Source of the DNA: Onchidella celtica
Lineage: Eukaryota; Mollusca; Gastropoda; Systellommatophora; Onchidiidae
Direction of reading: 5' to 3'
DNA length: 64,000 nt
Assembly: GCA_963931925.1 (NCBI GenBank)
Contig: OZ007569.1
Location: forward strand, 74,782,400 to 74,846,399
The translations under genes and the position numbers were made by a program. The first letter of the stretch is position 1; every line of letters begins with the position of its first letter. Positions 3,191 through 56,838 of this stretch are shown in pieces. The notes under the pieces are model-generated. The model ran no database searches and had not been told where the DNA came from. It worked only from the letters and a program-made list of their open reading frames with translations.

Positions 3191-3274
3191 AATAATTTTA
3201 TATATCTAATAAATATCTAAAAACAGGAGTAAAATTAGCCAGTTATTTCTGCAAAAAGCTAGTAAGCTTACTTA

Positions 3275-11595: not shown

Positions 11596-11935
11596 AATTT
11601 TGCCCGGGCAGCGGCCTTTCGGTCTGCTCTTTACGATTTCCAACTGCCAAGGTATCTTTAACGTGCGCAACGTGTACACGGGCCCTCCGATTTTTTTCGT
11701 CCTTATCCGAGAAGACTAGGTACTCGATCCTACCCCCCAATAGGACCAGGGCCTTGAAAATATGAGAAAAATCCAATTTCCAAGAACTACTCGATCCTAC
11801 CCCCCAATAGGACCAGGGACTTGAAAATATGAGAAAAATCCACTTTCCAACATGCCTGCACTGCCCGGGTTTAGAACCCGGGACCCTTGGCATGAGAGGC
11901 GAGCACCTTGCCTCTAGACCACCTTGTCCACTTGT
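11596..11935 (-). mobile_element. tRNA-derived SINE with an internal 66-bp duplication
   Basis: On the minus strand a tRNA-like head starts near 11930 (AAGGTGGTCTAGAGGC, with a B-box-like CCGGGTTCTAAACCCGG). A body with two 66-bp direct repeats follows (around 11725-11790 and 11790-11855, marked by TCGATCCTACCCCCCAATAG), then a conserved-looking block around 11650-11690 (ACGTGTACACGGGCCCTCCG on the plus strand). The SINE sits in the start of the 37-bp minisatellite, which is present on both sides, so it inserted later. Confidence 0.55.
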
Positions 11936-13490
11936 GTAAACAGTATTTATTGGGCATGTCTGTGGGTTTGGAGTGAACGGTATTTATTGGGTATGTCTGT
12001 GGTTTTTGGGGTAAATGGTATTTATTGGGTATGTTTATGGGTTTTGGGTAAATTATATTTATTGGGTGTGTCTGTGGGTTTGGGATAAATGATATTTATT
12101 GGGAATGCCTGTGTGTTTGAGGTATGTCTGTGGGTTTGAGGTAAACGGTATTTATTGGGTATGTCTGTAGGTCTGGGGTAGACGGTATTTATTGGGTATG
12201 TCTGTGGTTTTGGGGTAAACGGTATTTATTGGGTATGTCTGTGGGGTTGGGGTAAACGGTATTTATTGCGTATGTCTGTGAGGTTGGGGTAAACGATATT
12301 TATTGGGTATGTCTGTGAGGTTGGGGTAAACGGTATTTATTGGGTATGTCTGTGAGGTTGGGGTAAACGGTATTTATTGGGTATGTCTCTGGGGTTGGGG
12401 TAAACGGTATTTATTGGGTATGTCTATGGGTTTGGGGTAAACGGTATTTCTTGGGAATGTCTGTGGGTTTGGGGTAAACGGTATTTATTGGGTATGTCTG
12501 TGGGTTTTGTGTAAACAGTATTTATTGGGCATGTCTGTGGGTTTGGAGTGAACGGTATTTATTGGGTATGTCTGTGGTTTTTGGGGTAAATGGTATTTAT
12601 TGGGTATGTTTATGGGTTTTGGGTAAATTATATTTATTGGGTATGTCTGTGGTTTTTGGGGTAAATGGTATTTATTGGGTATGTCTGTGGGTTTTGTGTA
12701 AACAGTATTTATTGGGCATGTCTGTGGGTTTGGAGTGAACGGTATTTATTGGGTATGTCTGTGGTTTTTGGGGTAAATGGTATTTATTGGGTATGTTTAT
12801 GGGTTTTGGGTAAATTATATTTATTGGGTGTGTCTGTGGGTTTGGGATAAATGATATTTATTGGGAATGCCTGTGTGTTTGAGGTAAACGATATCTACTG
12901 GGTATGTCTGTGGGTTTAGGGTAAACGGGATTTATTGGGAATGTCTGTGGGTTTGTGGTAAATTAAACGGTATTTATTAGGTATGTCTGTGGTTTTGGGG
13001 TAAACGGTATTTATTGGGTTTGTCTGTGGGTTCGGGGTAAACGGAATTTATTGGCTATGTCTAGGGATGTGGTGTAAACGGTATTTGTTGGGTATGTCTG
13101 TGGGTTTGGGATAAACGGTATTTATTGGGTATGTCCGAGGGTTTCGAGTAAATGGTGTTTGTTGGGTATGTCTGTGGGTCTGGGGTAAACGGTATTTGTG
13201 GGGTGTGTCTGTGGGTTTTGCGGTAAACGGTGTTTGTTGGGTATGTCTGTGGGTCTAGGATAAACGGTGTTTGTTGAGTATGTCCGTTTGTCTATGGTAA
13301 ACGGTATTTGTTGGGTGTGTCTGTGGGTTTTCGGTAAACGGTATTTGTTGGGTATGTCTGTGGGTCTTGGGTAAACGGTGTTTGTCGAGTATGTCTGTGG
13401 GTTTTGGGTGAACGGTATTTGTCGGGTATGTCTATGGGTCTTTGGTAAACGGTGTTTGTTGGGTATGTCAAGTGGTATTTTCATTACTTG
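11936..13490 (+). repeat. 37-bp minisatellite, copy 1
   Basis: About 40 units of a 37-bp repeat with the core GGTATTTATTGGGTATGTCT followed by GTGGGTTTGGGGTAAAC. Units drift from TTTATT to TTTGTT toward the right end. A larger block appears duplicated: the set near 11940-12110 recurs near 12510-12870. The array is shared with 42300-43563. Confidence 0.9.
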
Positions 13491-15054
13491 ACGGGTTTTT
13501 TAATACCTTTGTTGCCTTGTCCGTTTCCGTACGCGTGAAACCCCGGCTTTACTCACCATATATGAGCGTGGCGTCGCCTTCTGCGGCCTTGGTCACTGAC
13601 ATAACAACAGCAATAGAAATACCACTGTACCGGTACGGTTGCTCCTTGGGATAGCCAAAGCCACGATACAATGCTCTACGATACTGGAGTTACATTCTTT
13701 CCTTCCCATGATGCAGCGCAAGCATAACCTCGCTGTTTTTACTGTTAGCATCAAGCCAAACCAATCATCCGTGCAGTACACACGCAACATGCCGCAACAT
13801 GGAGAACATGGATAAACGATTTTCAGGTGCAACATTTCACCGCTCACAATTACACACTGCGCGCGCCTGTTCGCTAACACGAAAGCATGTAGTGACTCTG
13901 GGCTAAAAGAATTAGGACAATCTACCACATAACTCCTACACACCTCAAGCACTACTCTCTCTCTCTCTCTCCCGTAGTCTTGTGAAATGTTTGCGACGCC
14001 ACAGGTGATCTGGCAATCAGCATTCCCCCATTCCTCTCGGTTTCTGACCTCCCGATTGTATCGCTCCATCCCAAGCCCGTCCATTCTGTATGATTAAAAA
14101 AAAATACTCACTTAGATCTAATAAAAGAGATGGCCTTAGTGAAGAAGGTTACAGACTCCAATCTGACATTATCCTACTTCTCTGACTAACCCGTGGAACA
14201 AATATTCGAATGTATGGGCACTCACTAACCGGTATATTATATTCCTACCTGAAGTTTTACCCCCGCTCCCCACACAACAGCACGGTGACCGCGTTTCACT
14301 TAAAATTAACGGGAAGTCTCCACAACGACGAACTCACTTTGGTCGTGAACACAGCATCCGCTCCTCGCCGCTATTTTTTTCGGAACAGTTTATTTATACA
14401 TGTACTACGAAAAAGTAAAGACTCTCTGAACTTTGGACTATAAAACCGACCTAAAAACTGTCGGGTATTTTCCATATTTTTATAAATGTATTTTTGCCTT
14501 TTCGAGAAAATGAGGACCGAAAGTTTAACAGTTGTGTAAAATCAAGGTTTTTGTTCCATTCGCTTCAAAATCGGAACTTGCATTAAAAAAATGCCCACGA
14601 AAAATACAGTCATATGACAATTCTACCAAGATAAAATTAGGATCGAGTGAACCACTTTTCATGACAAAATCTCAGAATGGGTTAAATGCTGCATACAATA
14701 ATTATGGCAAAAATACCCCTTGACGTAGTAAAAGGGACTGCGTACAGGTCCTCTGGGAACAAGTTAGTGGCCACTGAACTAAATGGAAGGTGTAAGAGAT
14801 TAGATTAAACTTCATTTTATGGTTCATAGTGTGAGATTGTTTTGTCCCAATAGCCATGTAAGTGTCAATAAGACAGTAAAAAAAAGGAATGAAAATGTTA
14901 CGTTTATAGTTATAATTATACATTCATCAACGATAATGTAGTGACAATAATGATGAATGCGATGATGATGATTGTGATGATTATAGATGATTTTGATGAA
15001 AGGGATTGTTGTGGTAGGGCGAAGAATGACAACGATGAGACAGTGTAACATTTG
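13491..15054. other. unannotated spacer
   Basis: A 163-codon minus-strand frame (13593-14084) is cysteine-rich with no motif I recognise; I do not call it a gene. 14900-15010 carries imperfect GAT-type trinucleotide repeats. Nothing else was identified. Confidence 0.4.
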
Positions 15055-15981
15055 TGTCACGAGCAGAGTTGAGGTCTTGGGGATCTAAAGACTGCACGAG
15101 AGGCAGCTAACTCACACTCGGACACAAACACACAAGAAATTATTAAATAACAAGAATATATGTTTGTCAGGCCGGCCGGGCCATAATATTACATAAAATA
15201 ATATATGAAACAATTCACAATAGAGGTATATTCAAAGCAAAAATTCCAATTACTAACTTAACCTAACATATTTATGCAACTATGTTCCCTATCAAATGTA
15301 CTGCAATCAATAGCCAAATGGTATATTATAAGAAACAAGATATCAGTTTATAGTAGCAGTTGAGTCGCCACTGGACAGTCGCCAGGCAAACTCTCCATAA
15401 ATAATATGGGTTCCCAAGGTACACTGAATGTTAGGAAAGCCCAGTATGTTCAAAGCCTATAGAAGCACAAATCGGCTTGTAGGTATTTAAGCAGCTTGTA
15501 AAAGTATTTATATACATGCAATCACTCAGTCACTATTCATTTCATCAACAATGTACCATAATTCTTCAATCGTATTATGGAGATAGTTTTACAATACAGG
15601 ACACTCGTTCGTCGAGTCCAAGCTGTGGTTTTCTCTGACTTCCTATGAGGCTGTGGGTTTTCTCCCTATCTCTGAACTTCTACCATAATTAGTTAATAAG
15701 ATCAGTTACCATTGGTCACGCCTAATTCGTAGGCGCGAACATCAGCAGAGCACAGCGTGGACTCTTTAGGTCAGTCCACCCAGACCTTTCTTTCTAGAGC
15801 TCTCTCTCTCTCTCTCTCTATGCTCAGACAGTCCGATGACAATGGACCGCTCGTCTTCGGGCCACACAGTTCAGGTACTGGCCAACCGGAGATACTTCAC
15901 GAAAACGATGCTTCTTCTCGTCTGTATTCAATGAGTTTCAACGTTACACGATGTTTTATAATATCCAACTACCCAGCACGG
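15055..15981 (-). repeat. left inverted arm (LTR family B-like, minus orientation)
   Basis: The reverse complement of this arm follows the LTR sequence at about 52085-52957: it contains the counterpart of GAAGCATCGTTTCGTGAAGT and ends at the terminal CTCGTGACA. It carries an extra CT microsatellite at 15801-15818. The similarity stops near GTGCTGGGTAGTTGG (reverse complement), just before the LINE frame. Confidence 0.8.
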
Positions 15982-16010
15982 TTATATATCGCTAAAAAAA
16001 AGAAAGATAT

Positions 16011-19000
16011 TTGAAGGTCGGAACATGGAATGTCAGGACCATGTGCCCCGGCCTAGATTCAACTAACCTGACAAACACTGATGTGAGAAAGACCGCCATC
16101 ATAGACAAGGAGCTACACAGACTGAGAGTTGACATAGCTGCCTTACAAGAGACCAGACTGGCAGACTGCGGCTCCCTGAAAGAAGAAAACTACACTTTCT
16201 ACTGGCAAGGCCTGAGCTCAAACCAACCCAGGCACCACGGAGTTGGCTTTGCCATCAGTAACCGACCCCTGAGCTGCATAACAACACCCATTGGAAAAAC
16301 AGAAAGATTAATGTCACTAAGATTGTCAACAAGATCAGGACAAATGAACATCATCTGTGTATATGCACCAACCCTAACATCAACTCCAGAGAACAAAGAC
16401 AAATTTTATGACGAACTGACCTCTGTTTTCAACTCCATACCACCAGATGAATCACTCATCATCATTGGCGATCTGAATGCAAGAGTTGGTTGCAACCACC
16501 AAGCTTGGCCCACATGCTTAGGTCATCATGGCATTGGGAAAATGAACGACAATGGTCAACGACTTCTTGAATTCTGCACCCAAAACGACCTATGCATAGC
16601 TAACACGTACTTCCAGGTGAAGCACTGCCACAAGGTAACATGGAAGCACCCAAGATCAGGCCACTGGCATCAACTGGACCACATACTAACAAGAAGGAAA
16701 CATCTCAATGCAGTAAAACTGGCCAGGACTTACCACAGTGCAGACTGTGATACAGACCATGCCCTCGTAATTGGAAACATTGAAGCACAACCAAAGAAGA
16801 TCTTCAAGACTCGTAACAAACCAAAACCAAAGTTAGACATTAATAAAGCAAAGCTGAATGAACGAAAGTGTGCCTTCACGGAAACATTCAACACTAGCAT
16901 TGGGTCAAAGTTGGAAGAAGGAACAATAGACGAGACCTGGAATCTTCTAAGGACAAACATCTACGACTGTGCTCTCACTTCCTATGGTGCAAAACCACTA
17001 TTCAAACACGACTGGGTTGAGGAACATGCCATCACACTCCTCCCACTGATTGAGGAAAAGCGAAAAGCTATGGTAGATCACAAGCAGAGACCATCACAGG
17101 AAACCCATGATAGAGTCAAACAGACACGCTCCAGAGTCCAACAAGAAGCAAGAAAATGTGCAAATGAATACTGGACCAATCTATGCATGGATATCCAAAG
17201 AGCATCAGATATGGGAGACCCAAGGACAATGTACGAGAAGATGAAAGTAGCACTGGGTCCCACCGTCTCCAAATGTGCTCCAATCAAATCAGAAAGTGGA
17301 GAATCAATCACAGACAAAAAAAATCAACTAGACAGATGGGTTGAGCACTATTCAAAGCTGTACTCAAAAGAATCACCAGTCAACGCTGGACTAGATGAGG
17401 CTGTACCAACGCTCACAGCAATGTACGAACTTGATGTGGAACCCACAATAGAAGAACTTGCAGAGGCAATCCAAGACTTGAGAAACGGGAAGTCACCTGG
17501 AGAAGATAATATCCCAGCAGAAGTTCTGAAAGAAAATATAGACACCCTTCTTCCACATCTCCATCAACTGCTAATCAAATGCTGGAAAAACGGCGAGGTC
17601 CCTCATGATATGAGAAATGCAAAAATTGTGACTCTCTACAAGAACAAAGGCGACAAAGGTGACTGCAATAACTACAGAGGCATATCCTTACTAAGTGTAA
17701 CAGGAAAAGTCTTTGCAAGAGTCATCCTAAAACGTCTCCAAACACGTTCAGAAAGGATACTTCCTCAATGTGGGTTCAGAGCCGAAAGATCGACCATAGA
17801 CATGATCTTTACCCTCCGACAACTTCAAGAGAAATGTAGAGAGCAAAATCGACCACTGTTCATAGCCTTCGTGGACCTGACAAAAGCTTTTGATACTGTA
17901 AGCAGACCAGCGCTCTACACAGTTCTCAGAAATATAGGATGCCCCCCAAACTGCTGAGTCTGATAAAATCCTTCCATGAAGACATGACTGGATGTATACA
18001 GTTCGATGGAAACATCTCAGAAAAGTTCGACATAAAAAATGGAGTAAAACAAGGATGTGTACTAGCACCGACCCTGTTCGGCATCTACTTCGCAGCACTC
18101 CTCCACCATGCGTTTAGCGAAAGCACTGAAGGCATCTACATCAGGACAAGACTGGACGGCTCCCTGTTCAACTTATCAAAACTCAAAGCAAAGACAAAAA
18201 CAGTTGAGGTCCTTCTGCGCGAACTCCTGTTTGCAGACGATGCAGCTATCGTCGCACATGACAACGAAACACTCCAGAATTTGATGGATCGACTAGCACG
18301 TGCATGCGAGCTCTTCTCTTTAATCATCAGTGTGAAGAAGACAGAAATAGTCGCACAAGGAACATGTGTACCTCCAAGCATCTACCTAAATGGAGATAAA
18401 TTGAAAAATGCTGAATCTTTCACATATCTGGGGTCAACAATCACTGCAACACTCTCCCTAGATGAAGAAATTAACATGAGAGTCGGGAAAGCAGCCACAA
18501 CTTTCGGAAAACTGTTCAAAAGGGTCTGGAACAATAAACACCTCACAACAAAGACCAAGATTCTGGTCTATCAAGCATGTGTGTTGACCAGCCTCTTATA
18601 TAGATGTGAGACTTGGACCACCTACTCAAAACAAGAAAAAAGGCTGAACACGTTTCATCTCAGATGCCTACGGAAAATCTTCAACATCAAGTGGCAAGAT
18701 AAGGTCCCAAATACAGATGTATTGAGAAAGGCACAAGTTCTATCAGTGCAAACGATCTTACGAATGAGGAGACTTCGCTGGTTAGGCCATGTGAAAAGGA
18801 TGGATGATCACCGCCTCCCAAAACAAGTGCTGTATGGCGAGCTGAGGGAGGGTCACAGAGCAAGAGGCAGACCCAAGCTCCGATTTAAAGATCTGTGCAA
18901 ATCATCACTAGATGACTTCGAGTTGCCAGAAGGCTGGGAAATCATTGCTGTAGACCGAACCACATGGAGAGGAGATGTGAGGAGGGGTGCTCGGAGGTAC

Positions 19001-19170
19001 GAGCAGTCACAACAGACAAAACAAGAACAAAAACGGCAGGACAGGAAGCTCTAGCTGCTAACCCAGCAACCACACAACAGTACTTGTCCTGCTCATATTG
19101 TCAGCGGCCGTGTAACTCAAACATTGGCCTGGTCAGCCACGAGAGGAGTTGCTCACGACTCCAACATTGA
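16011..19170 (+). CDS. LINE ORF2: APE endonuclease + reverse transcriptase + C-terminal zinc finger, two frameshifts
   Basis: The endonuclease runs from the first codons: GTWNVRTM (metal-site Asn), ALQETRL near codon 46 (catalytic Glu), GDLNAR near 152, and HWHQLDHI then DTDHALV near 246 (the His/Asp end). RT follows: LYKNKGD near codon 541, NNYRGISLLS, QCGFRAERST and AFDTV near 625. The first frame stops at 17957 (GCPPNC). The RT continues from 17939 in another frame (GVKQGCVLAPTLF, FADD near 18233, YLGSTIT, LRWLGHVKRMDDHRLP) to 19054. A third frame carries the finger CSYCQRPCNSNIGLVSHERSC, in which Cys replaces the last His. The 17945 break is one base short at a C6/A3 run. There is no ATG at the start (TTG at 16011), and the upstream frame is closed. 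Confidence 0.9.
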
Positions 19171-19214
19171 CATTTAGAAGCTGCTCTGACCGTCTGTAAA
19201 GACTATATTCCTAC

Positions 19215-20160
19215 ATTCAAAATGGTGGGATGTTTCGGCCAATGAGATTACTGAACTAATTTTGCCAGCGGACTAGCCTTGCCGGGTGGTTGGATAGTGT
19301 AAAACATCGTGTAACGTTGAGATTCATTGAATACAGACGAGAGAAGCATCGTTTCGTGAAGTATCTCCGGTTAGCCAGTACCTGAACTGTGTGGTCTGAA
19401 GACTAAAAGTCCTTTGCCATCGGACTGACAGAGTAGAAAGAAAGGTTTGGGTGGACTGACCTTAAGAGTCCACGCTGCGCTCTGCTGATGTTCGCGCCTA
19501 CCAGTTAGGCGTGACCAACGGTAACTCATCTTATTCATTAGGTATGATAGAAGTCAGGGATAGAAGAAAACCCACAGCATCATTGGAAGTCAGAGAAAAC
19601 CACAGCTTGGACTCGACGAACGAGCGTAGTGATAGCTTGTGAATCATTACGACTCGAGCCCTCTGATTTTAATATGAATAGTAGAGCGATTACCTGTATA
19701 AAATTATATGTACAAGCTGTTTAAATACCTACAAGCCAATTTGTGCTTCTGTAGGCTTTGAATGTACTGGGCTGTTCTAACCTTCAAGTGTACCTTGAGA
19801 ATCTGTATTATTGCTGGAGAGTGTGCCTGGCGTCTGGCCAGTGGCGACTCAACTGTTACTTTAGATTAATATCTTGTTTCTTATAATATACCCATTTGGC
19901 TATTAAGTGCATTACCTTTGATAGGGAACATAGTGGCATAAAGATGTTAGGTTAATTTAGTAATTGGAATTTTTTGCTTTGAATATACCTCTATTGTTTT
20001 TTTGTTTTGTATATTAATATTATGTAATAATATGGCCCGGCCGGCCTAACAACATATATTCTTGTTATTTAATAATTTCTTGGGTGTATGTGTCCGAGTG
20101 TGAGTTAACTGCCTCTCGTGCAGACACTAGATCCCCAAGACCATAACTCTGCTCGTGACA
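19215..20160 (+). repeat. right inverted arm (LTR family B-like, plus orientation)
   Basis: Matches the LTR at about 52024-52957 (AAAATGGTGGGAGG-type start, AACATCGTGTAACGTT, AGAAGCATCGTTTCGTGAAG, CTCTGCTCGTGACA end) with substitutions and small indels. The first ~290 bp of the LTR are missing. Confidence 0.85.
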
Positions 20161-23106
20161 ATGATAATATTTGCAAAATGTCGAAACGATTGATAAATGA
20201 TGGAATGTTTTTCAGTATTTTAAACTCATTTTTATGTTACCACTGGACTCGTTTGAAAGCTCATTGCTAATCCTTCATTGACTGATACAGAAACAGTAAA
20301 TGTCATGTGTGAGCAAGATGATTGTAAGAGCCTTCCACATGTCGGTGGTGAGGAGTTGGACCGATTACACCATCTGCAACCCTTCATTCATAGCTTTACC
20401 GTCTTGCCAAGTAGGCATTGTTCTTTCATTTCGCGTTTCTTGTCTTCGCCAAATTTTAACCAGCATCTGGTTTAGGAGATCAAAGTAACAGTTTTAGTTT
20501 TATCCACAATGTTCTTGTGTATCAACTTGTCCCCCCCCCCCCCCCGCCCAAATTAACGAATGCACTTACATATTCTACTCATCACAGCTTTTTCTTATCC
20601 ACAAAACCGGCAACGTGATTTTTTTTTTTTTTTTTAAATTTAAACTCAAGCGAATTTGTTTGGATTCTTTTTAAATATTAATTTGAGTCTTATACTACAT
20701 CTAATCCACAAATTTAGGAACTGAGATTCCGAGTAATACCATTTGACGAATTGTTGACCTTTCCGCTGTCGTCTCTGTACAAATGAAAACACAGCTTAAG
20801 CCTGTAACGGCCTGTGAGTATTTATATGTTAGTATGTGTTATGCGTATCCATTAGTTAGGACTTCGTTACAATGCGTACACTGAGCCGAGGACGCCAATG
20901 GGCAGGTTGTAGTTCTGAGTTTTCGTTTCTTAGTAGATCTAAACCTTTTTAGTTACCAGTTTAGTGTTTTTAGTTCTTCCTTGTATTATTAGTTACATGT
21001 GTTGGTTTTGTTTAGTCATTTCTTTTTGGTTATTGCTTCCTGTGACTGTTAAGTTACTCTTTTTAGTTCCTCCCTTCAGAAATTACCTTCTAGTCGATAG
21101 CTCTTAGCTTTAGATCCTGTTTGTATAGTCTGTGTTACTCCAACCGTTGTCTGGACTACATAACAAGGCCCTTTTTGTTTTTCTGATGAATGTGGTCTCT
21201 GTAATGTGAATGATCCTGACGTTTTTTTTTTTTTTTTTGGTGGTAAATTATTTTCACCACAGTTTCATCACACACAATAATTGAACAAATCGTCCCATCA
21301 GAATGAACCGATCTCCACTTTCTGGCTGAACTGATTCATACACTACACACTACTTCTGAGGGCCTTCTCCATTGTGTGTCAAAGTATCAAGCACATTCGG
21401 TGTGTAATTTATAAGTATTACTGAAAAGAAAAACAACAACTTTGCTCTAAAAGATAATTATCATCACATACACGAAACTTCAATCCTCAATTTCTCAAAG
21501 ACAATAAACAAGCATGAAAAGTCCTCTTGACGGAGGAGAGATAGAATCTTGTCATTCTAAAGGGAGGAAATCTGACTTGTATGTGGACCAGGCAGGACGG
21601 ATTTGACTGACACATAATGAAACCAAGATGCAATTCCCGTAAATCAGGACATTTTTGTAATTGTAATTTAGTGCCACTGATTAGATAAAACAGCCGTTTG
21701 GGGGAACCAGAGCGCACAAATCGGAAGGAGTACCATAAGAGTTACAGAACTTTAGTCGGGCACACATTTCATGCTCTGAGTGTTAATCGCCGAGCCATGC
21801 ATTTACTATGAAAAAGACATCCATCTACCGGAGGATCACGGAAGCTCCTAAAGTCGCGTCATTGTTATATTATCCTTACAGTGTAACTCAAATGAAAGTC
21901 CTCTAGTCAAAATAAGTAAGCTTATTGCAAAGTTAGTGAGTAGTAATCGTCCTCACCTGCCTTGAATGCAGCGATCAGCAAAATCTACACTACTTGAGCC
22001 CTACATCATTCTGCCCACTTGGAACATTATAATTTTGCCACTTGAATGGGATCAACGAACAGATCTCCGCCTGGACAGTGGAAATAATTATATCGCATGA
22101 CTGAATGATCTAAAGACATCTGTTTCATGTCTTCTTCCATCTATCTCGAATCTGCTTGTCCTTGCTGATTCAGTTGAGGACAAAATCCATTTCTGATATA
22201 TTGGTCCTAATCAATGAAATTCACCTCCTGAGATCCTGGACAAGGGCATTTATTACAAATATAATGACCGTTCATCATGGAAACTAGAGTTTGAGCCCCT
22301 TTCAGAGATGCCAAGTCCACATCTTCAATGACAGACCATTGGCAACATACACTTATTTGTGCTGACAACGTCTGTGACCCTCATCACACGTCTGGCAACC
22401 ATGGAAAATGAGGATTCGGCGTCCGTTTTTTTTGTTGTTGTTACAGAACTCGTACATGTATTTTGGATAAATGGCATGACAAGGTGTGGAGAAGAGAGGG
22501 CCATTCTGCTCGCCGCTTTGCCTTCTTGTAAAGGCAGTCTTCAGCGCAACATGGCTCAAGTAGGGCTCACACATGACGTTACTTCGGAGAGTCCAGTTCT
22601 ATCAAATTTTGCAGCTTTGTAGCCAGTACTGTTTCACCACAGCCGTGTTGCCGTGGCATTTGCTGTCCTGCTAACTATTTTAATGCTTCACGATCAGAAA
22701 TAGTTCTTCATTCGTCTTGTTGAACTAAGTTAGGAACTAGCAGTAGCACTGCATTATTTTGATCATTATACTGGTACATCTTTTTAGCGTTTTCTTAGCA
22801 CTGTTACATCTCCACTTACCCCATAGTAGTGCTAGAGTACAGATGGGAAATCATAGAGTGAACATTCGATGCCAAGGAGAAGTATGCCACATCAGGGTCC
22901 AATAATGCGGTAGTGGGTGAACTATGAAGAGATAAAGATAGCTATCGTGAAGAACGGTACCGAATTAAGGATCGTTTCTCATTGGTCAAGACCTGCACTT
23001 GGAAAAGGTCCCTCTCGCCCAGTGGCCTATGGGAAGCCAGTAACTACTCGAAACCGGTAATGGTTAAGAAAAGGGCCAAGTGCGACGCCGATGCCTAGGT
23101 GGGCCT
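20161..23106. other. spacer with fragments of dispersed repeats
   Basis: No gene supported. 20340-20530 matches the reverse complement of 43900-44075 (shared TTTTAACCAGCATCTGGTTTAGGAG-like core). 21330-21440 matches 44490-44625 in direct orientation (TTCTCCATTGTGTGTCAAAG). A C15 run lies at 20531-20545 and T runs near 20620 and 21220. The short frames here, such as 22359-22622, show no motif. Confidence 0.45.
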
Positions 23107-41584: not shown

Positions 41585-42299
41585 ACACACCGACAGAGAC
41601 AGACAGACAAACAGTCAAACAAACAATGCAGTGTGAATACCTTTGGGCAATGAAACCACAAAGGTAAATAGGACAAATTATATACAAGAGGAAAACAAAA
41701 CTGCTCTGTTTGAAATCCATTTCATATCTGGCATAATTTTTTAGTTTAAACCTTTGAAACACAGAACTCCCAATTAATCAAAAGGGAAAAAAAGTTCTCT
41801 GGTAGGCACAGTGTCCATGTGAAAGCGAATAGAGAAAATATAGCTGAACCGTGATCACAACTCTACATTTTCTCTCACAAGGGCCACTTGGAAACTGTCC
41901 CTATAGAATCCGCAATTGGGAGATAATGAAATTCTTTCAAGAAGTTCATAACTGATAAGAAATATTTGGCAAAAAAAAACCCCACAACAAAACAACATCT
42001 GCCGTAATCATTGTAGGTATACACTTGAACCGTTTCATTTTGGAGCCATCCATAAATCCCACGCAACCGCTCTCATGAAGGTGGTAAAGGGAAATAACGT
42101 CCGCCAAACAAACCACATTAAACATTAAGCTATTATCTCCCCTGGCTTATCCATGCCGAGAAGATTGGTTTTCGGGTTTTTACGTAAACTGTAGTCCATT
42201 TTGTCCTTTGTAATTATGTAACATTCAGTTAAACAGACAGGCCGTGATACAGAAGTGAGAGACACAATCATGTATAGTTGTAGGCCTACGTGTCTCTGT

Positions 42300-43563
42300 G
42301 TGTGTGGGTTTGGGGTAAAAAGGTGTTTGTTGGGTACGTCTGCGGGTTTAAGATAAACGGTATTTATTGGGTATGTCTGTGGGTTTAAGGTAAGCGGTAT
42401 TTATTGGGTATGTCTGTGGGTCTGGGGTAAACGGTATTTATTGGGTATGTCTGTGGGTCTGGGTTAAACGGTATTTATTGGGTATGTCTGAGGGTCTGGG
42501 GTAAATGGTATTTACTGGGTATGTCTGAGGTTCTGGGGTAAACGGTATTTATTGGGTATGTCTGAAGGTCTGGAGTAAACGGTATTTATTGGGTATGTCT
42601 GAAGGTCTGAGGTAAACGGTATTTATTGGATATGTCTGTGGGTCTGGTGTAAACGGTATTTATTGGGTATGTCTGTGGGTCTGGGGTAAACTTTATTTAC
42701 TGGTTATGTCTGTGGGTCTGAAGTAAACGGTATTTATTGGATATGTGTGAGGGTCTGGGGTAAACGGTATTTATTGGGTATGTCTGAGGGTCTGGGGTAA
42801 ACGGTATTTATTGGGTATGTCTGAGGGTCTGGGGTAAACGGTATATATTGGGTATGTCTGTGGGTCTGGGGTAAACGGTATTTATTGGGTATGTCTGTGG
42901 GTCTGGGGTAAACGGTATTTATTGGGTATGTCTGTGGGTCTGGGGTAAATGGTACTTATTGGATATGTCTGAGGGTCTGGGTTAAACGGTATTTATTGGG
43001 TATGTCTGAGGGTTTGGGGTAAACGTATTTGTTGGGTATGTCTGTGGGTTTGGAGTAAATGTATTTGTTGGGTATGCCCTTGGGTTTGGGGTAAACGGTG
43101 TTTGTTGAGCAAGTCTGCAGGTTTGAGGTAAACAGTATTTATTGGGTATGTCTGTGGGTTTGGGGTAAATGTATTTGTTGGGTATGTCTGTGGATTTCAG
43201 GTAAACGGTTTTTGTTGAGTATGTCTGTGGGGTTGGCGAAAAGGATTTTTTTGGTATACCTGTGGGGTTGGATTATGGAGTAAACGTATTTGTTGGGTAT
43301 GTCTGTGGGTTTGGGGTAAAATTTGTTTTTTGGGTATTTCTGTGTGTTCGGGGTAAAGTTTGTTTGTTGGGTATGTCTGTGGGGTTGGATCATGGAGTAA
43401 ACGTGTTTATTGGGTATCTCTGTGGGTTTGGGCTAAAGTTGTTTTGTTGGGCATGTCTGTGGAGTTGGGGTAAACGGTATTTGTTATATATATCTGTGGG
43501 TTTTGGGTAAGCGTTGTTTGTTGAGTATTTCTGTGGGGTTGGGGTGAACGCTGTTTGTTGGGA
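42300..43563 (+). repeat. 37-bp minisatellite, copy 2
   Basis: About 34 units of the array at 11936-13490 (GGTATTTATTGGGTATGTCT, then GTGGGTCTGGGGTAAAC). Here GGTCTG dominates over GGTTTG, so the two arrays have homogenised separately. Confidence 0.92.
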
Positions 43564-46500
43564 CACCGACTCTCGCCGCACGGGTGGCTCTTTAAATTTA
43601 ACAATTGGAGAATTGCGATATGTTTACAACTTGCTGCGTGTACATCCCGACCATTGCAAATTGCTTCTGCGTGAGTAACTGATTACAAAATTCACTTCAT
43701 AAATCCTTATGAGGGCACTGAGGCTTTCCCTGAAAAGCCTGGAATGTGATAATAGGTAAAAATTAGGAGAATTCATGATCTGAGTTCCTAAATTAGTGAC
43801 CTGGCATTAGTATAAGAGGTCACATTAATTTTTAAGTTTTCAGACAAATTTATTTCAATTTAAGTTCTAAAAAAATAAAGCAACGGCGGTTTGGGTAGAA
43901 AGAAAATGATGGTGAAGAGAATACTGTAAGTGTGTACTGTCATTGGGTGGAGGCAGGCTGTCCGATAGCACCATCCACACACAGAAACATTGAGATGAAA
44001 AGAAAACTGTAACTTGGATCTCCTGAACCAGATGCCAGTTAAAAATTGACGAAGATAAGAAACGGTAAATGCCCAAACAAACAGATCTGCTGTTCAATAT
44101 TGTATAGCCTTGAATGGTTACAGATCTTGGGGGCTGTCCATGTTTCTCCTCCCCCCCCCCCCCCCCCACTCGTCACGCCCGACGACATTCGGGAGGCTCA
44201 TGTGGACGACCGTTTTGCTCGTACATGACATTAATTTTGCTGTTTGTGTATCAAGCCATGATGGTTTAGCTATGAGCTTTCCTACGGGCACAATGGCAGC
44301 ATGCTGAGGAGCGACCATACCTTTAAAATACTGGAAGGGATTTGCGTAATCTATTAATCGCTTCAACATTTCGCAAATATCGTAAATTGTTGACAAAATT
44401 TAAGTACTGGTAAAAATAATAACGGTAACGCCTGAGTCAGAAAATCGTGCCCTAAGGTTCTATCTCCACGTTTTGGTTGAAATGAGTTTACACACTACAC
44501 ACTACTTCTACAGGCCACTACACATTACTTCTACAGGTCTTCTCCATTGTGTGTCAAAGTATCAAGATCATTCGGTGTGTAATCTGTAAATATTACTTAA
44601 AAGAAAAAAGTCATACCTCTAAAAGCTATGAGTATGCCAAACTACAATCATTTTCTTAAAGGCTGATAGAATGAAGTTTGAACATTGTGATTCTAAGGAC
44701 GAAGTGTTAAGATGAAGGGAAATAACAATTAAAACTTTGCTGGAACTTTACAAATGAACACTTATTTCCCTTTGACTGTATGCCATGCTCTTGCCCCACC
44801 TATTCTGCTCATGTTATGTATTTGGACATTCTTCTTTTCGCTCTCTGTTAAAGTTTCCCTTGATTCCTCTCATTCATTTTCTGCCTTAGACCTACAGGTT
44901 CGCGTGGGTTTCTTGTCTTCAGAGGGAGGGGGAGGGTGAATGATGCTTGTGAAGAAACTTGGAAGATATCTACTGTCAACTCTCTTACTCGAGACCTCAA
45001 GGTGTAGGCTGACAGATTTGATCTCATCTTGCAACAACAGAAATGATGCTTCTCGCCGCTTGTTCAAGTCTGAATTTGCACCGAACACAGCCAGAATGAA
45101 GTATTGGGTGTTGCAGTTTCGCTTGACTACTCTTGATGAAAATAGATGAGCAGTGGTCATAGAGATAGTATTTAGTACGACAAAAAGCCACGGGGAGTAG
45201 AGGGTCGGGTACCACAACCAAAAAGTTTGAAGCTGGCTGTTTGTGCAGTTACATATTACATAGTAGCTGTGGATTGTCTATGTGGTTATCCGTAACTCCC
45301 CATTTTCTCAGATGTGTCTGTCTCACATGGATTTAGTTAAGAGTGGACTGCTGGGATAACAATGCATTCGGACGTTCTATGTACAAAATGTAATTATAGC
45401 AGATCCTTTGAAGGCTGCAAATTGGAACCTTTATCATCACTGACATAAATATCACGGAGAAATATAAAGAATCTTTATGAGTCGGAACTTAACTGATTGT
45501 TAGTCAGTGGACACCAGATGTTTTCTCCTTTGATTGCTTTCCCGTGTTCTAAGGACCATTTTTTTAAATGTGGAATTGGTCCATCTACTATTGTCATATT
45601 GCGGGTTTGTTTGCCATCTGAAGCCAACAGATTGATTGCAATATGCTCTTTCCACTCTCTTCATACTAACTAATGAAGCAAGAAATCTGAACCCCTCATA
45701 TTGCTGCTTTTATCTTCAAATAGATCTTCAAAAATTCTTGCAATCTCGTCAGTAAAAACCATTTGTGTTTGAGACAGTGAAACTGTTGATTTCTTCCATT
45801 CTTGTGAAAAACGTGATAGTAAATTGTCTTCTAGCATCTTCGGTTTATATGTGCAACACAGTTAACTTTGGTTTGGGCATAGTTCTATGTGTACAATTTT
45901 GGTGACACTTACATGATAGGACAATACAGTAGCAGAGCTTGCCAAATTCAAAACAAAAACACTGTCATTTGAATAGTGTTACTATCTGGATATTGTGATT
46001 TGTGAGATCTGTCTTAATTACGTCATGAATCTCTTCATCATTTTTCCCGTCATCTTCATAATTGTGTGTGTTTGTGTGTGTGTGTGTGTGTGAATGTGTG
46101 TGTGTGTGAGGCGTGACCGCGCACTCCTACATGAGGAGAGAGGAGATTAATGATTGAAGCCCACTGAATAGGCCATGAACTTAAAGATGCTCAGTCCTGT
46201 ACTGACAACCCCCCATTTACCACTGGCCACGTATGAACACTGAATGTTTAAGTTCTAATGTCCAATATTAGCCTTGCCGCATTGGAATGAAATAAAAAAG
46301 TCTGTGTTCTTGACATCTTCACCACTCGCCATTTTATGGCACATTGTGTCAAATAGAAGTGACATCATGGAAATTTTCGCTGACATTTATCAGTATCATG
46401 TCTTCAGTTAATGGCAAAACACACACTGTACTCTCTAAACTCTTCTGTCATAATTGTCAAGAACAGATTTAATTCATAAATGTTTCCACTGACTAAATTT

Positions 46501-47702: not shown

Positions 47703-48680
47703 ATAATGGCCCGCCTTTCTGATGAGTTGTATACATGGGGGCCAGAAAACAACGAACGCTTATAATCATGTATTATCTGAACACGAGTGCAATGTTCAGC
47801 GACTTATCAAATAGGCTTTATCTATGACACAAGAGTATTCAGCATTAATGTACTTTAAATAATTCGTCGATGAAAGCAGCCAGGTAGCTGATACTTAAAG
47901 AGCAGCAGTTGCCATCACAATAACACAATAATGATCTAAATGGTGGGAAATGAAGAGCTCTTGTACCTAAATAGATAGAATATCATAAACATACTGACGA
48001 CGGGCGCATTTGCGCGGAACATTTTTGATAGTCTACACACGGTAGCTATTCAAGACACAATATAAAACTGAGAGTGGTCATTAATTTTACTGATAACATT
48101 ACTTTACAGGATTTTCTCCTGCTGCAACATTACTTACTCTTTCTCTCCGAGAGGTAAAATATTTCCATACCTGTTCAGCTTAAGCTTTCTTTTTCCAGTG
48201 CTTTTCATGGCTGTTCTATTGTGGAGGGTTCAGAAATTCTCCAGATTAGACAATAGAAGAAGACAAGAGGTTCACGGAAGAATTGGAATGTTCACGAAGA
48301 AAGACATAATACTTGTAGTTCATTAGAGTTGAGAAGTTCATCATTCTATAAAACCTAACACGTTCTGTTCCAGATCTGCGTTCACTACATTGAACAGAAT
48401 GGGAATACATGAAGAGGTTAGCCCGAGTGTCTCGGAATTATGTAGATCTATGTGCTATGAAACATTGGACAATTTGTGCATTAAAACACCATTTGTGAGT
48501 TTATTGTTACCCATTGTTGTTGTGCTGAACTACAGAATACATGAGATAGTTCCCCCCCCCCCCCTTCCTAACAACTACAAGCCACCAGCATTAATTCCCT
48601 CCCCAACTGTTTTCTTCTTTTCGGCAATCTGAAATACCTGAGAATTTCAGGACATATATATTTGTATGATTCAAAATAAA
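47703..48680. other. unannotated spacer
   Basis: No feature identified apart from a C13 run at 48552-48564. Confidence 0.4.
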
Positions 48681-48689
48681 AACTGGTAG

Positions 48690-50440
48690 GTGGTAACTTT
48701 TTCTCACTCAGTCCCATACATGGTAACTTTCTCTCACAGAGTCCCAGACCTGGTAACTTTCTCTCACAGTCCCATACATGTTAACCTTCTCTCACTGAAT
48801 CCCATACATGGTACCTTTCTCTCACACTCCAATCATGATAACCTTCTCTCACAGAGTCCATTACATTGTAACTTTCTCTCACAGAGTCCCATACATGGTA
48901 ACTTTCTCTCACATGCATGGTAACTTTCTCTCACAGAGTCCCATACGCGATAACTTTCTCTCACAGAGTCCCATACATGGTAACTTTCTCTCACATAGTC
49001 CCAGACGTGGTAACTTTCTCTCACAGTCCCAGACGTGGTAACTTTCTCTCACTGAGTCCCATACATGGTAACTTTCTCTCACTGAGTCCCATACATGGTA
49101 ACTTTCTCTCACTGAGTCCCATACATGGTAACTTTCTCTCACTGAGTCCCATACATGGTAACTTTCTCTCACAGTCCCATACGCGATAACTTTCTCTCAC
49201 TGAGTCCCATACATGGTAACTTTCTCTCACAGTCCCATACGCGATAACTTTCTCTCACTGAGTCCCATACATGGTAACTTTCTCTCACAGACCCATACGC
49301 GATAACTTTCTCTCACTGAGTCCCATACATGGTAACTTTCTCTCACAGTCCCACACATAGTAACTTTCTCTCACATACATGGTAACTTTCTCTCACAGAC
49401 CCATACATGGTAACTTTCTCTCACTGAGTCCCATACAAGGTAACTTTCTCTCACAGTCCCATACATGGTAAATTTCTCTCACAGTCCCATACATGGTAAA
49501 TTTCTCTCACAGAATCCCAGACGTGGTAACTTTCTCTCACAGAGTCCCATCCATGGTAAATTTCTCTCACAGTCCCATACATGGTAACTTTCTCTCACAG
49601 AGTCCCAGACGTGGTAACTTTCTCTCACAGAGTCCCATCCATGGTAAATTTCTCTCACAGTCCAATGCGTGGTAACTTTCTCTCACAGAGTCCATTACAT
49701 TGTAACTTTCTCTCACAGAGTCCCATCCATGGTAAATTTCTCTCACAGTCCAATGCGTGGTAACTTTCTCTCACAGAGTCCATTACATTGTAACTTTCTC
49801 TCACAGAGTCCCATCCATGGTAAATTTCTCTCACAGTCCAATGCGTGGTAACTTTCTCTCACAGAGTCCATTACATTGTAACTTTCTCTCACAGAGTCCC
49901 ATCCATGGTAAATTTCTCTCACAGTCCAATGCGTGGTAACTTTCTCTCACAGAGTCCATTACATTGTAACTTTCTCTCACAGAGTCCCATCCATGGTAAA
50001 TTTCTCTCACAGTCCAATGCGTGGTAACTTTCTCTCACAGAGTCCATTACATTGTAACTTTCTCTCACAGAGTCCCATCCATGGTAAATTTCTCTCACAG
50101 TCCAATGCGTGGTAACTTTCTCTCACAGAGTCCATTACATTGTAACTTTCTCTCACAGAGTCCCATCCATGGTAAATTTCTCTCACAGTCCAATGCGTGG
50201 TAACTTTCTCTCACAGAGTCCATTACATTGTAACTTTCTCTCACAGAGTCCCATCCATGGTAAATTTCTCTCACAGTCCAATGCGTGGTAACTTTCTCTC
50301 ACAGAGTCCCATACATGGTAACTTTCTCTCACATAGAGTCCATACATGGCAACTTTCTCTCACTGAGTCCCATACATGGTAACTTGCTCTCACAGAGTCG
50401 AATGCGTGCTAACTTTCTTTCACAGAATCTCAGACGTAGT
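48690..50440 (+). repeat. ~30-bp minisatellite with an 88-bp higher-order repeat
   Basis: The monomer is GGTAACTTTCTCTCACAGAG plus TCCCATACAT. The left part (48690-49490) is mixed. From about 49493 three monomer types (CCATTACATT, CCCATCCATG and CAATGCG variants) alternate in fixed order with an 88-bp period; at least seven virtually identical 88-bp units lie between 49669 and 50285. Confidence 0.95.
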
Positions 50441-51731
50441 TTCCAAACAAAATAAAATATTTTCAAGTTTTATGGCACAAAGAGGAGTTCCGAAGGAGAG
50501 GGAGGGACAGGAGGAGGTGGGGTGGTGTGACCAATGGGAACTTGCTCACCTCTGGTGCAGAAGCAGCTGGTAAGAACTCAGTCCTCTCACATCTCTTGTT
50601 CAGCCCAGAAATTTTACTGCAAGTGATGTGTCGACTCGCAAATTTTTTCGATTAAATCGTGCATGGACAAGTTTTTATATAAACTTGTAAGTATGGTCCA
50701 TGTGTGCGTGTTAGTTATGTGTGTAGCTATGATAAAACTGTGTAACTAACTTTCCGGCCTCTGGATAAATAAAGTTTCATATTATCTTATCTAATCTTAT
50801 CATCTGATCATGTCGAACTTAGTAGGATGGCTTAGCTTAAGATTGTTAGCTGTGGCATTGAATGTTCAGGCCTATTTGAGTTTTTTGTCGAACGAATTGA
50901 TTGGAATATCATTCTCTTAAATGAGTGTCCAGTCAAAAAAAAAAAAGTCGAAAAACTACTCCAGCACGTGGAAATACTATTTGATCAACTATCGAACAGT
51001 TCCAGAATTCAATTAACCTAATAATGCTAATCGACTATAACATCCCTTAAACTGAATGCTTTTAAGAAAATTCCTCAGGTGTTTTAGATTTCTGAAACTG
51101 GAAACGGGAGATAAGACTCAGCTACGACTCTTCTTGCCCATTCAATGGGTTGTATTAGATAGTCACGTGACATGCGCCGTCAGCCATTTTGACGGACAGC
51201 CGATTAGAGAAAATGGTGGCCGGTCAAGACATGACCAACGCATCCACTCTGAATCCGCGATCGTTGAGACGCTATGATTAGAAATTATTGTCTATAGACA
51301 AGACTGACCCCTCCAGTGTTCCCCGAGCAATGGAGTACCCGCAAAGAAGAAATGCCGGCTGTGGCAATGCCAGAATTATATCTTCTGGTGCTGAAATGCA
51401 ATGTCAAAATTGGGCAAAAAGAAAAAGTTGTATGTAGCCAAAGCCCCGCGTAAGAAAAACTACCCAAACGATATAATGCAGACACTAATGAACACTCCAT
51501 GGCAAGAATATGCATAATATTGATAAACCACACCAGATATCGAGACCAGATGCAGTGTATAGATAAAAAAAATAAAAATAATTAGATTCTAGATCTAGAT
51601 TGATCCATTGATCGACATGTCAATGCTGTGACTAGATTCTAGTACGAGATCTAGATCCAGATAGAAATTTAGATAGACTAGCAAGCCTACATGTACTGTA
51701 CATCTAACTAGATCTAGTAATAAGTGGTAGT
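50441..51731. other. spacer with a LINE/SINE 3' tail
   Basis: GGATAAATAAAGTTTCATAT followed by TATCTTATCTAATCTTATC near 50761-50800 is a typical non-LTR 3' end. 51140-51196 shows an AATGGGTTGTAT...CCATTTTGACGGAC segment that recurs inverted at 57691-57757. No gene is supported. Confidence 0.4.
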
Positions 51732-52957
51732 TGTCATGATTCGGATATTGTTAAAACTCACGCAGAGAGTGAGTTGTTGTTGTTTACCAGGGCCATGAGA
51801 AATTGGCTGGTGGCCTTGAACGGTCCTCGCCAAATTATAGTTGGTGAGTAAATAAATGTAAAGTTAAACTGTTAGATTCACGCTGGTGGGTTTTAATGTT
51901 CGTGATTAATAAGTAATGGAGTAGGGGTGAAACAAGGTGGGGACAGTTGACATTGTTAAGTATGACTAGACAAGTTTTTGCACGTTAACTGGCTGGTAGA
52001 ATAGTGCAGACGTATTACTACAGTTAAAATGGTGGGAGGTTTCGACCTATGAGATAGCTGAACTAATTGGGCCAGCGGACTAGCACGCTGGGTAGTTAGA
52101 TAGTATATAACATCGTGTAACGTTCAGATTTGGTGAATACAGACGAGAGAAGCATCGTTTCGTGAAGTATCTCCGGTTGGCCAGTACCTGAACTGTGTGG
52201 TCTGAAGACTAAGAAGTCCTTGCTAACGGACTGACTGAGCTCTAGAAAGAAAGGTCTGAGTGGGCTGACCTTTGAAAGCCCACGCTGCGCTATTTTGATG
52301 TTCGCGCCTCCCAGTAGGCGTGAGCAATGGTAATATATCTTAATTATTCAAGTATAATAGAGATCGGAGATAGAGAGAGAACTACAGCCTCATAGGAAGA
52401 CTAAGGAAACCCCAGCTGGCACTCGACCACGAGTGTCCTGTATGATAGATCTATTGCCATAGTATGATTGGAATAATATAGCACATTGTTGATGAATTGA
52501 ATAGTGATTGTGCCTAAAATATAGTCTTTTGGCAACTGCTTAAATTACCTACAAGCCGAAGAGTGCTTCTGTAGGCTTTGAACGTACTGGGCTCTCCTAA
52601 CCTTTAAGCCCATATGATTTATAGAGAGTTTGCCTGGCGACTGGCCAGTGGCGACTCAACTGTCACTTTAAATTGATATCTAGTTTCGTATAATATACCT
52701 ATTTACTATTGATTGCAGTACCTCCATAGCTACATGAATATCATTGGTTAAGTTATTAATTAGAGTTTTTGGTTTGAATATATACCTCTATTGTCTTTTG
52801 TTTTGTTATTAATATTTATGTAAACTATGGCCTGACCGGCCTGACATATATACGCTCTAGTTATTTAGTACTTTTCTTGTGTGGTTGTGTCCGAGTGTGA
52901 GTTAGCTGCCTCTCGTGCAGTCGTAACATCCCCAAGACCCTAACTCTGCTCGTGACA
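51732..52957 (+). repeat. 5' LTR of the family B element
   Basis: TG...CA ends; a TATA-like AGTATATAACATCG near 52084 may be the promoter. The distal 0.93 kb is the sequence found, diverged, as inverted arms at 15055-20160. Confidence 0.92.
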
Positions 52958-55612
52958 TCTGGAGGGGACCCCACTGACATCTGGAGGGGACCCCACTGAC
53001 ATCTGAAGAGGACCCGTCACCTTCTGACATCTAGAGAACACTACCATCATCGGAAGAGGACCCCGTCAACAGCTGCAGGTCTACCACTCTAAGACTCCAC
53101 TGTTATTTATGTAATTTTTGTAGTTTATAGTTTTGTATACTGCTGATTTTTGTTTTTGTTTCTCCCCCACATGTCTGGCATGTCCTCTCGTCATTGATCC
53201 TGGGACCACTACGAGGGACTGACAGCTAGCATCAGGAAAAGACAAGACCAGCGCTGTGGACCAAAGGAAAGAGCCAGTCCATTTTGCCCAGTTAAGTGAA
53301 CCATCTGTATTTGTCTTCGTTTGAGGGGTTCGTCGTTCCAGCTCCCCTACTTTTGACAGGCATTATTTTTTTCTTTTGTGTTAGATTAGATAGGCGGGAG
53401 GTTGGAAGGGATCGAGACTTAGCATACCTCTTTTTGCCAGACTAGCAGATCTAGATGGCGTTTAAAACGGATAGGAGATACGCTTTGCCTTGAATAGTTC
53501 TGTAGGGACCTGTTATTCGTATAGATTGTTAGCGTTCTATCTTTCTCGTACTTTTAGGAAGACGTCTCTCTTGTGCTTTTCTTACCTTTCTGTACATAGT
53601 TTCAGGTTAGTCGGGTCTGTTGTCGTTCGTGATTTCTGTTAGTTTAGCGTCTTATTGTAATTTATCGTTCGTTCTGTTCCTCTTGCGTCTTGTTTGTAAT
53701 GTATTACCTTTTTATATATTCGTTATATAGTATTTATCTTTCTTGGTTACACTTATTTTTTTAATATTTTTTTTGATTACATACTTCCATTGATTCACGT
53801 GTTTTGACACGTTGAGCGGTTTTTAGAGGTAACTTGGCTTGGTGAGAGGGAAAAGTTTTTAAGAATTAACCCTCCTGTGCTGTAGAGTGACAACACTGTT
53901 TAAGTGACAACTATTATTGAATTGTTGGAATCCGTGCAGTGAGTACACTGCCAGTTCTTGCTAATTATTAATTTATACCGATCTCGTCTTTAAATTGACG
54001 GGCCCCCGAGAGGACAGTATTAGACTGTTTAGGGAGGTGACCTTTTTTTTGTGTAGTGATGAATAGTGAGTATTGGTTTTATTGTCGGCTGGTGCCGCCG
54101 CCCGAAGGAGCAATAAATTGTCTCAGGGGAAGAGTCTGTATCAGTGTCGAGGTGATATCAATATAAGAGCTATGTGAATTATATATATTGAGGATACTTT
54201 TTTTTAGTCGTCTGCGTATGACGTCGACCCGAGGAGAGCAATAATGAGATTGCCTCGTGGGATGGATGATATTGGTATTTTTCGATTATTTGAGAGATGT
54301 TTGGCAGTGGTAACGTAGTACACTGCGTATTCGTGTTTTGAGAGATATTTTGCAGTGGTAACAGAGGACACTGCGTGTTCGCGTTTTGAGATATTTTGCA
54401 GTGGTAACAGAGGACACTGCGTGGTCGCGTTTTGAGATATTTTGCAGTGGTAACAGAGGACACTGCGTGGTCGCGTTTTAAGAAGTTTTGGAGAAGTGTG
54501 GAGTTGTTTTTTTATACAACCGATTATGACTATGATTTTCCGCGTTTCGTGGACCATCTAACGTAATACTATATATGACAAGTAAGAATAACCGATTATG
54601 ATTGTGACTATCCATGTGGCCAGTGGATGAGTTACCTAAGAACATACCCGATAAGGATATTGAATTGAACCGATTATGACTATATTACCGAGATGACTGT
54701 GACACTTGACGTGTGCATGGCTTGCGTACGGAAACGGCGCATTAAATTAACTGCTATCGCCTCGTGGCATCTCATCTATACCGGATTGGATGTTGGAAAG
54801 ATTTAATTGTAATGTTATTTGAGATCTAGCTTAGTGTTAAATGCGAGAAGCGCTATGTAATTCTTAACTCAAGACGAGGGCTACGCGGATTTTAAACGAG
54901 AACATCAGACTAAATTATCTTACGGACGCTTCTGTTAGTGTTAATTAAGCTTAACTATGCCGAAATTTGTAGTTGTGATAAACCCGGAAATTTTGTTCTC
55001 CTATTTAGGTCTGTCATATGTACTGGCGTTGGATACTGATTAGCACCTCATTCAGAGACCGAGGGATGGTATCACATATTGTTCACCCATTGTGAACACT
55101 TTTCACCTACCCCTGTGCTTTCCTTTGTTCCAACAGCTATTTTACTGACGTCGACCCGTATTTTGGCCACACCAGACGTTGTTGCCCAGGGTCGAGGACG
55201 AGAAGATCATGGCAGACCAGGAGTCCAGATCCACTAATGCCATCGATGCTACTATAGTTATCTTTTCTTGAGTATTATTCATTGTATGTATGCATTCCTG
55301 ATGACATTCGCACAGGATCAGTGTTGTACTCTAAAATTTTAGAGTTATGATTGTTAATGTCTACCTATTTAGAGGTAAGATTTAATCCTCAGAGAGATAT
55401 ATACTTTTGGACGGAGCCTTAAGATTTTCATGAAGTTTTGTCCATCAATGATACCCGTCCTGTAGGGTTTTTTCAACTTTAGTACTAGTCTTAGTTATTA
55501 CCTAGTATTCTTAGTTAAGTTCACCTTTCGAGGAATTTCTCGACTCATGCCTTCCCCTTACGATAATCATTTATATCGTTAAAATTGCAAATTTTAACTG
55601 GGGTGGGGGATA
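52958..55612 (+). other. non-coding interior of the family B element
   Basis: It starts with two copies of ATCTGGAGGGGACCCCACTG-AC, the place expected for a primer-binding site (TGG three bases in); the tRNA is not identified. 54290-54480 holds four ~46-bp repeats (GAGATATTTTGCAGTGGTAA-CAGAGGACACTGCG). The polypurine tract ends at 55610. Confidence 0.75.
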
Positions 55613-56838
55613 TGTCATGATTCGGATATTGTTAAAACTCACGCAGAGAGTGAGTTGTTGTTGTTTACCAGGGCCATGAGAAATTGGCTGGTGGCCTTGA
55701 ACGGTCCTCGCCAAATTATAGTTGGTGAGTAAATAAATGTAAAGTTAAACTGTTAGATTCACGCTGGTGGGTTTTAATGTTCGTGATTAATAAGTAATGG
55801 AGTAGGGGTGAAACAAGGTGGGGACAGTTGACATTGTTAAGTATGACTAGACAAGTTTTTGCACGTTAACTGGCTGGTAGAATAGTGCAGACGTATTACT
55901 ACAGTTAAAATGGTGGGAGGTTTCGACCTATGAGATAGCTGAACTAATTGGGCCAGCGGACTAGCACGCTGGGTAGTTAGATAGTATATAACATCGTGTA
56001 ACGTTCAGATTTGGTGAATACAGACGAGAGAAGCATCGTTTCGTGAAGTATCTCCGGTTGGCCAGTACCTGAACTGTGTGGTCTGAAGACTAAGAAGTCC
56101 TTGCTAACGGACTGACTGAGCTCTAGAAAGAAAGGTCTGAGTGGGCTGACCTTTGAAAGCCCACGCTGCGCTATTTTGATGTTCGCGCCTCCCAGTAGGC
56201 GTGAGCAATGGTAATATATCTTAATTATTCAAGTATAATAGAGATCGGAGATAGAGAGAGAACTACAGCCTCATAGGAAGACTAAGGAAACCCCAGCTGG
56301 CACTCGACCACGAGTGTCCTGTATGATAGATCTATTGCCATAGTATGATTGGAATAATATAGCACATTGTTGATGAATTGAATAGTGATTGTGCCTAAAA
56401 TATAGTCTTTTGGCAACTGCTTAAATTACCTACAAGCCGAAGAGTGCTTCTGTAGGCTTTGAACGTACTGGGCTCTCCTAACCTTTAAGCCCATATGATT
56501 TATAGAGAGTTTGCCTGGCGACTGGCCAGTGGCGACTCAACTGTCACTTTAAATTGATATCTAGTTTCGTATAATATACCTATTTACTATTGATTGCAGT
56601 ACCTCCATAGCTACATGAATATCATTGGTTAAGTTATTAATTAGAGTTTTTGGTTTGAATATATACCTCTATTGTCTTTTGTTTTGTTATTAATATTTAT
56701 GTAAACTATGGCCTGACCGGCCTGACATATATACGCTCTAGTTATTTAGTACTTTTCTTGTGTGGTTGTGTCCGAGTGTGAGTTAGCTGCCTCTCGTGCA
56801 GTCGTAACATCCCCAAGACCCTAACTCTGCTCGTGACA
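55613..56838 (+). repeat. 3' LTR of the family B element
   Basis: Same length as the 5' LTR, offset 3881 bp, with no difference noticed in the stretches compared. Confidence 0.92.

Follow-up and report, generated by a model that had tools for sequence, protein, structure and literature searches.

Can a long interspersed nuclear element (LINE) lying between two inverted copies of a long terminal repeat (LTR) move as one unit, or was such an arrangement assembled piece by piece? The question is raised by a locus in the gastropod Onchidella celtica, within a stretch of 64,000 nucleotides of contig OZ007569.1 (hereafter the window; C3:74782400-74846399 in our numbering), where inverted arms at 15055-15984 and 19200-20160 flank a LINE endonuclease-reverse transcriptase (RT) fragment at 15989-19203. 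The initial annotation had offered both answers: three events that built the structure by chance, or LTR-derived inverted repeats that move a LINE coding unit. From searches of the 1.14-Gb genome (43 contigs), we conclude that the locus is very probably a one-off scar of at least three events and not a mobile unit. It is ordinary in kind, and its empty sites are unusually clear.

The mirror symmetry of the two ends, on which the annotation had rested, was borne out by nine inverted-repeat pairs covering most of 15055-15984 against 19274-20160, and by a blastn alignment of the left to the right arm with 83.2% identity over 936 columns. Each arm is the 3′ three-quarters of an LTR. Both had been derived from the distal part of a family B LTR present in the window; the opposite orientations held, and each arm matches that part at ~78.6% (blastn), but the arms are relatives of family B that belong to two different subfamilies. 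The left arm (15055-15984, minus strand) is closest to the LTRs at L002-L008 (94-95%), which match the right arm at ~84%. The right arm (19200-20160, plus strand) is 95.5% identical to L029 and 94.0% to L023, LTRs that are 83-84% identical to the left arm. The closest relatives that we compared (94-96%) therefore fall in different LTR subfamilies, called a (left) and b (right) here. The LTR family is wider than these two groups: L024-L028 and L030 share ~86% identity with the right arm and 87-88% with the left, and the 40 scored matches of the left arm besides itself, from 1641 first-look candidates, span 95% to 87%.

Sibling LTRs reveal which ends have been kept. The 3′ LTR terminus is exact in both arms, and the 5′ terminus and the second target copy, both present in siblings, are gone. 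Missing from the left arm are 341-346 bp of the LTR 5′ end (seven siblings, all extending beyond 15984) and from the right arm ~271 bp (268-277 in nine siblings). Siblings of both arms extend past the inner junctions, L031 sharing the nearest bases only. Among 18 sibling loci, 13 LTRs were comparable in that both ends were readable and no recognised interior adjoined them; L026, L027 and L030 (joined to an interior) and L022 and L031 (one end unreadable) were set aside. A perfect 5-bp target duplication flanks 11 of these 13 and is lacking in L002 and L007, flanks being judged by eye. On the outside, the window structure is bordered by ATTTG and ATGAT, which do not form a target duplication, and none of the four 10-kb stretches around other arm-like LTRs (L038-L041) contained a second LTR.

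The unequal flanks could be compared with two paralogous empty sites. For the left flank (14600-15054), the search gave a full-length relative of 90% identity at C3:4553095-4553547, a partial one of 96% at C3:74231987-74232080 and many further partial repeat matches. The right flank (20161-20520) gave four matches: itself, C3:74232467-74232825 (93%), C3:4552339-4552708 (92%) and, weakly, a place on C9. The two C3 paralogues carry both flanks on a single strand, separated by 386 and 382 bp that contain neither LTR nor LINE. Both empty sites continue beyond the left target ATTTG (15050-15054) at the LTR-a integration point, a position at which they read AGTTG and ATTTG; the right target at the LTR-b integration point, ATGAT in the window (20161-20165), corresponds to ATGAT and ATAGT (L059, AAGTT-ATGAT; L060, ATAGT). 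The 382-386 bp of intervening DNA were not found at this place in the window, and elsewhere in the window they gave one significant match, of 80 bp and 82.5% identity (44706-44784). Since the paralogues without the LTRs and LINE keep the flanks 386 and 382 bp apart and this spacer is gone from the window, each LTR integrated on its own, in head-to-head orientation and at points ~384 bp from each other, and the intervening stretch was lost later. The two integration points, and parts that differ in subfamily and apparent age, support the several-event origin. The surroundings belong to a segmental duplication: 13545-20744 minus the inserts has ~85-96% relatives at C3:4.55 Mb and C3:74.23 Mb, copies that contain neither the LTRs nor the LINE. 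Minisatellite arrays at 11932-13482 and 42299-43563 consist of related ~37-bp units, which also occur near both paralogous loci.

The LINE between the arms (15989-19203, plus strand; ~98.5% identical to L033-L037) is truncated at both ends. It had been described as a nearly complete second open reading frame that starts at its endonuclease. The endonuclease (PF03372, PF14529) and reverse transcriptase (PF00078) domains are indeed present and the 5′ region is absent, but a frameshift near 17945 breaks the reading frame and the 3′ end is lost. The first open frame (15996-17957, plus strand, 653 amino acids) encodes the endonuclease and the first part of the RT, and the second (17894-19054, plus strand, 386 amino acids) the remaining RT; the frameshift between them is private to this copy, being absent in five of five siblings checked. 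Upstream, all 11 siblings checked extend beyond the window copy with common sequence, and the four with a recognised target duplication do so for ~760 to 1,380 bases that include tandem repeats. Tandem copies at a spacing of ~85 bp occur in the 5′ region of the family in L036 and L037, and L033 has a 62-bp repeat.

At the 3′ side, we sought the LINE end in 18 siblings and found it in 15, not in L051, L053 and L054. All 15 readable ends finish with AGAC(G/C)AAAAGGGCC and then a tail that varies. The tails (L033-L037, L042-L050, L052) are mostly (TA)n or AATGA-like after the terminal motif, L050 being different. The window copy ends at AGAC and thus lacks at least the final 11 bases common to the 3′ ends of siblings. 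Target duplications of 10-12 bp flank four of five siblings, and none was seen at the junctions of the window LINE, which fits truncation at both of its ends. With the 3′ motif and the duplication both absent, it lacks the features of a canonical target-primed insertion. Among 40 scored LINE copies, from 727 candidates, 36 of the 39 others run through to the query's 3′ end, and 5′ starts vary; the short ones stop at 3195 of 3208 in one case and at 1132 and 898 in two. Copies short at the 3′ end are therefore uncommon, though not unique.

The joins themselves differ from each other. They had been placed near 15981 and 19215 and are corrected here to 15984/15989, with four filler bases between, and to 19199-19203, with a shared motif. 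At the left junction, the four bases TATA (15985-15988) separate LTR and LINE and match neither partner in comparisons with LTR and LINE siblings. At the right junction, AGAC (19200-19203) is LINE end and LTR-b sequence at once, a 4-bp microhomology; an overlap of at least 4 bp is expected in 1.4% of random LINE/LTR joins.

Private substitutions give a rough order for the parts, in counts that vary with the siblings chosen. The left arm has 30 in 919 positions (3.26%; all seven LTR-a siblings used), the right arm 16 in 942 (1.70%) and the LINE 13 in 3202 (0.41%). The LTR-b set comprised the five of 11 siblings closest to the right arm (L022, L023, L029, L031 and L032), of which four were aligned as L022 had <90% coverage; L024-L028 and L030, at 86% to the right arm, were left out. 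For the LINE, five were chosen and four aligned, L034 falling under the 90% coverage rule. The siblings' own private counts were 4-11 of 919 for LTR-a, 15-19 of 3202 for the LINE, and 5, 6 and 9 of 942 for LTR-b, the distant L031 having 55 of 942. Over the first 1.6 kb of the LINE, where nine of 11 siblings could be used (L018 and L020 were too short to include), the window copy has 7 private substitutions in 1580 positions and the siblings 3 to 12. The LINE thus looks younger than the arms and, within the limits of sibling sampling, would have arrived last, an age order that rests on these sibling private-substitution counts.

Could the whole structure nevertheless have moved? An LTR-derived inverted-repeat unit carrying the LINE would have integrated here with loss of ~384 bp of target, and its two outer ends, exact LTR 3′ termini as in siblings, would be usable by an integrase. 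Neither arm/LINE junction was found elsewhere, however: the window was the only copy among 40 scored matches for each junction, from 1028 and 1165 first-look candidates, a sample in which a strongly diverged second copy could be missed. A 5-bp target duplication is lacking, the arms differ in subfamily and private-substitution level, and the LINE appears younger than either. Movement as a unit, the second of the answers in the initial annotation, is on these grounds hardly credible, and we rejected it on copy number, flanks, arm subfamily and age. The annotation had also named what would speak against its proposal, a copy single in the genome whose LINE has a target duplication of its own inside one arm; the structure was single among the scored matches, and the duplication was not seen.

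A chimeric complementary DNA (cDNA) would account for some of the same symmetry. The RT of an LTR element could have switched between two strong-stop (R-U5) cDNAs and LINE RNA, with insertion of the product by integrase. The portion missing from the 5′ side of the LTR is roughly equal in the two arms, which would suit R-U5 ends, and both outer ends are U5 ends. Against this, ~384 bp of target were lost with no 5-bp duplication, the inner ends of the arms correspond to LTR positions ~72 bp apart, and the arms differ in apparent age. We consider this origin very improbable, and set it aside for the absent target duplication and the missing spacer.

We propose instead, as the simplest account, that two LTRs of subfamilies a and b, solo LTRs or remnants, integrated ~384 bp apart with their 5′ ends facing. 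What lay in the middle would later have been lost: the spacer, ~344 bp of LTR-a, ~271 bp of LTR-b and the target copies on the inner side, together roughly 1 kb for a pair of solo LTRs; the gap would then have been filled by 3.2 kb of a LINE from a younger family. LINE cDNA may have patched a double-strand break that occurred close to the middle of the LTR pair, by endonuclease-independent insertion or reverse-transcript-mediated repair; the cDNA would have annealed at AGAC, and end joining would have added the filler TATA. The empty sites and siblings show where the LTRs integrated, that the spacer is missing and that the LINE is cut at both ends; the filling step is the least certain part of the scheme, and we put forward the LINE cDNA patch tentatively, as possible and just short of probable. 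Reverse-transcript break repair is described as giving inserts truncated at both ends, with short microhomology and mostly without target duplication (PMC4516963; this and the other papers cited by PMC number were available in part, and statements about them refer to those parts). The hallmarks of such events are present here (both ends truncated, target DNA lost and not duplicated, microhomology and filler), although they are not exclusive to that route.

An ordinary target-primed LINE insertion between or inside the opposed LTRs would yield the same product as a single patch step if deletions on either side had then taken away the LINE ends and the 5′ portions of the LTRs. Copies of the LINE flanked by a target duplication do occur elsewhere, and another LINE, ZfL2-2, commonly shows extra 5′ nucleotides and 3′ microhomology at ordinary insertions (PMC2666801, in part). 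As far as that source goes, therefore, the case for a non-standard event is limited to the truncation at the 3′ end, the loss of target and the lack of a duplication. Such an insertion requires the extra deletions, however, one of which stopped within ~12 bases of the LINE 3′ end, and it left no trace of a LINE target duplication; we regard it as a somewhat unlikely route. Other observations also weigh against the cDNA patch. The LINE copy C5:12776044 stops short as well (3195 of 3208) and no 3′ end was found in L051; near-equal trimming of both LTRs has a chance probability of 11%; the 17% divergence of the arms would weaken a hairpin; and endonuclease-independent events of L1 are reported to have lacked microhomology (PMC4516963, in part). 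On the role of divergence, breakage at inverted repeats falls with distance and divergence, and in single-stranded DNA only with divergence beyond 25% (PMC10164571, in part).

The filler could also have come from DNA and not from LINE RNA, by capture of a genomic LINE segment or by template switching via a LINE copy. Gap filling of this kind is documented inside the inverted repeats of Pack-TIRs (TIR, terminal inverted repeat); single-copy Pack-TIRs in animals arose mostly by gap filling, with microhomology at one or more breakpoints in 67.6% (PMC8277862, in part). Of 727 candidates, 40 were scored; they included no near-identical donor, the best besides the window being given as 99% identical, but an unscored, lost or later mutated donor would account for this. 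DNA capture is in our judgement unlikely, without being far-fetched.

The cDNA patch has parallels in known systems. Endonuclease-independent LINE insertions, as far as described in the available part of PMC4516963, likewise lack a target duplication, are truncated at both ends, have microhomology at one junction and lose target DNA; the present case differs in being an old scar, known from sequence alone and centred in an opposed LTR pair. Pack-TIR gap filling, in the part of PMC8277862 at hand, resembles it in foreign sequence between inverted repeats, single copy and microhomology, whereas here the arms are two separate LTR insertions and not the TIRs of one DNA transposon, and the filler is itself a retrotransposon.

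DIRS and Penelope-like elements have inverted terminal repeats around a reverse transcriptase. The locus shares with them an RT between inverted repeats, but here it is that of a LINE with an Exo_endo_phos endonuclease, and the arms are parts of LTRs found alone elsewhere. Among the papers that searches on inverted LTR structures listed, no title or abstract opening described the arrangement (a DIRS1 overview and a Dictyostelium paper on 'inverted LTRs' were covered at that level).

By simple arithmetic from the 1641 first-look candidates for the arm, itself a rough figure, ~0.2 head-to-head LTR pairs within 400 bp are expected by chance per genome, and more if the true copy number is larger. 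One such pair, picked while scanning for oddities, needs no special cause. A bolder idea is that head-to-head LTR pairs are fragile palindromes whose centres are repeatedly patched by LINE or other retrotransposon cDNA, making opposed LTRs hotspots of LINE capture. One case, the present locus, has been seen, and we think the idea a long shot; if filled LTR pairs did prove frequent, the fragility of opposed LTRs would be measurable from genome sequence alone. The locus illustrates how ordinary insertions and DNA loss can mimic a novel composite transposon; empty sites in paralogues can decide between such a transposon and a scar.

The related family B element of the window (51732-56838, plus strand) has two 1226-bp LTRs (51732-52957 and 55613-56838) that are identical where compared, and a target duplication, GTAGT. 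Its interior has no open reading frame of at least 100 amino acids other than one of 117 on the minus strand, and the element is apparently non-autonomous. The interior also contains a 46-bp tandem repeat. A satellite-like array at 48661-50500 alternates between 30- and 28-base steps.

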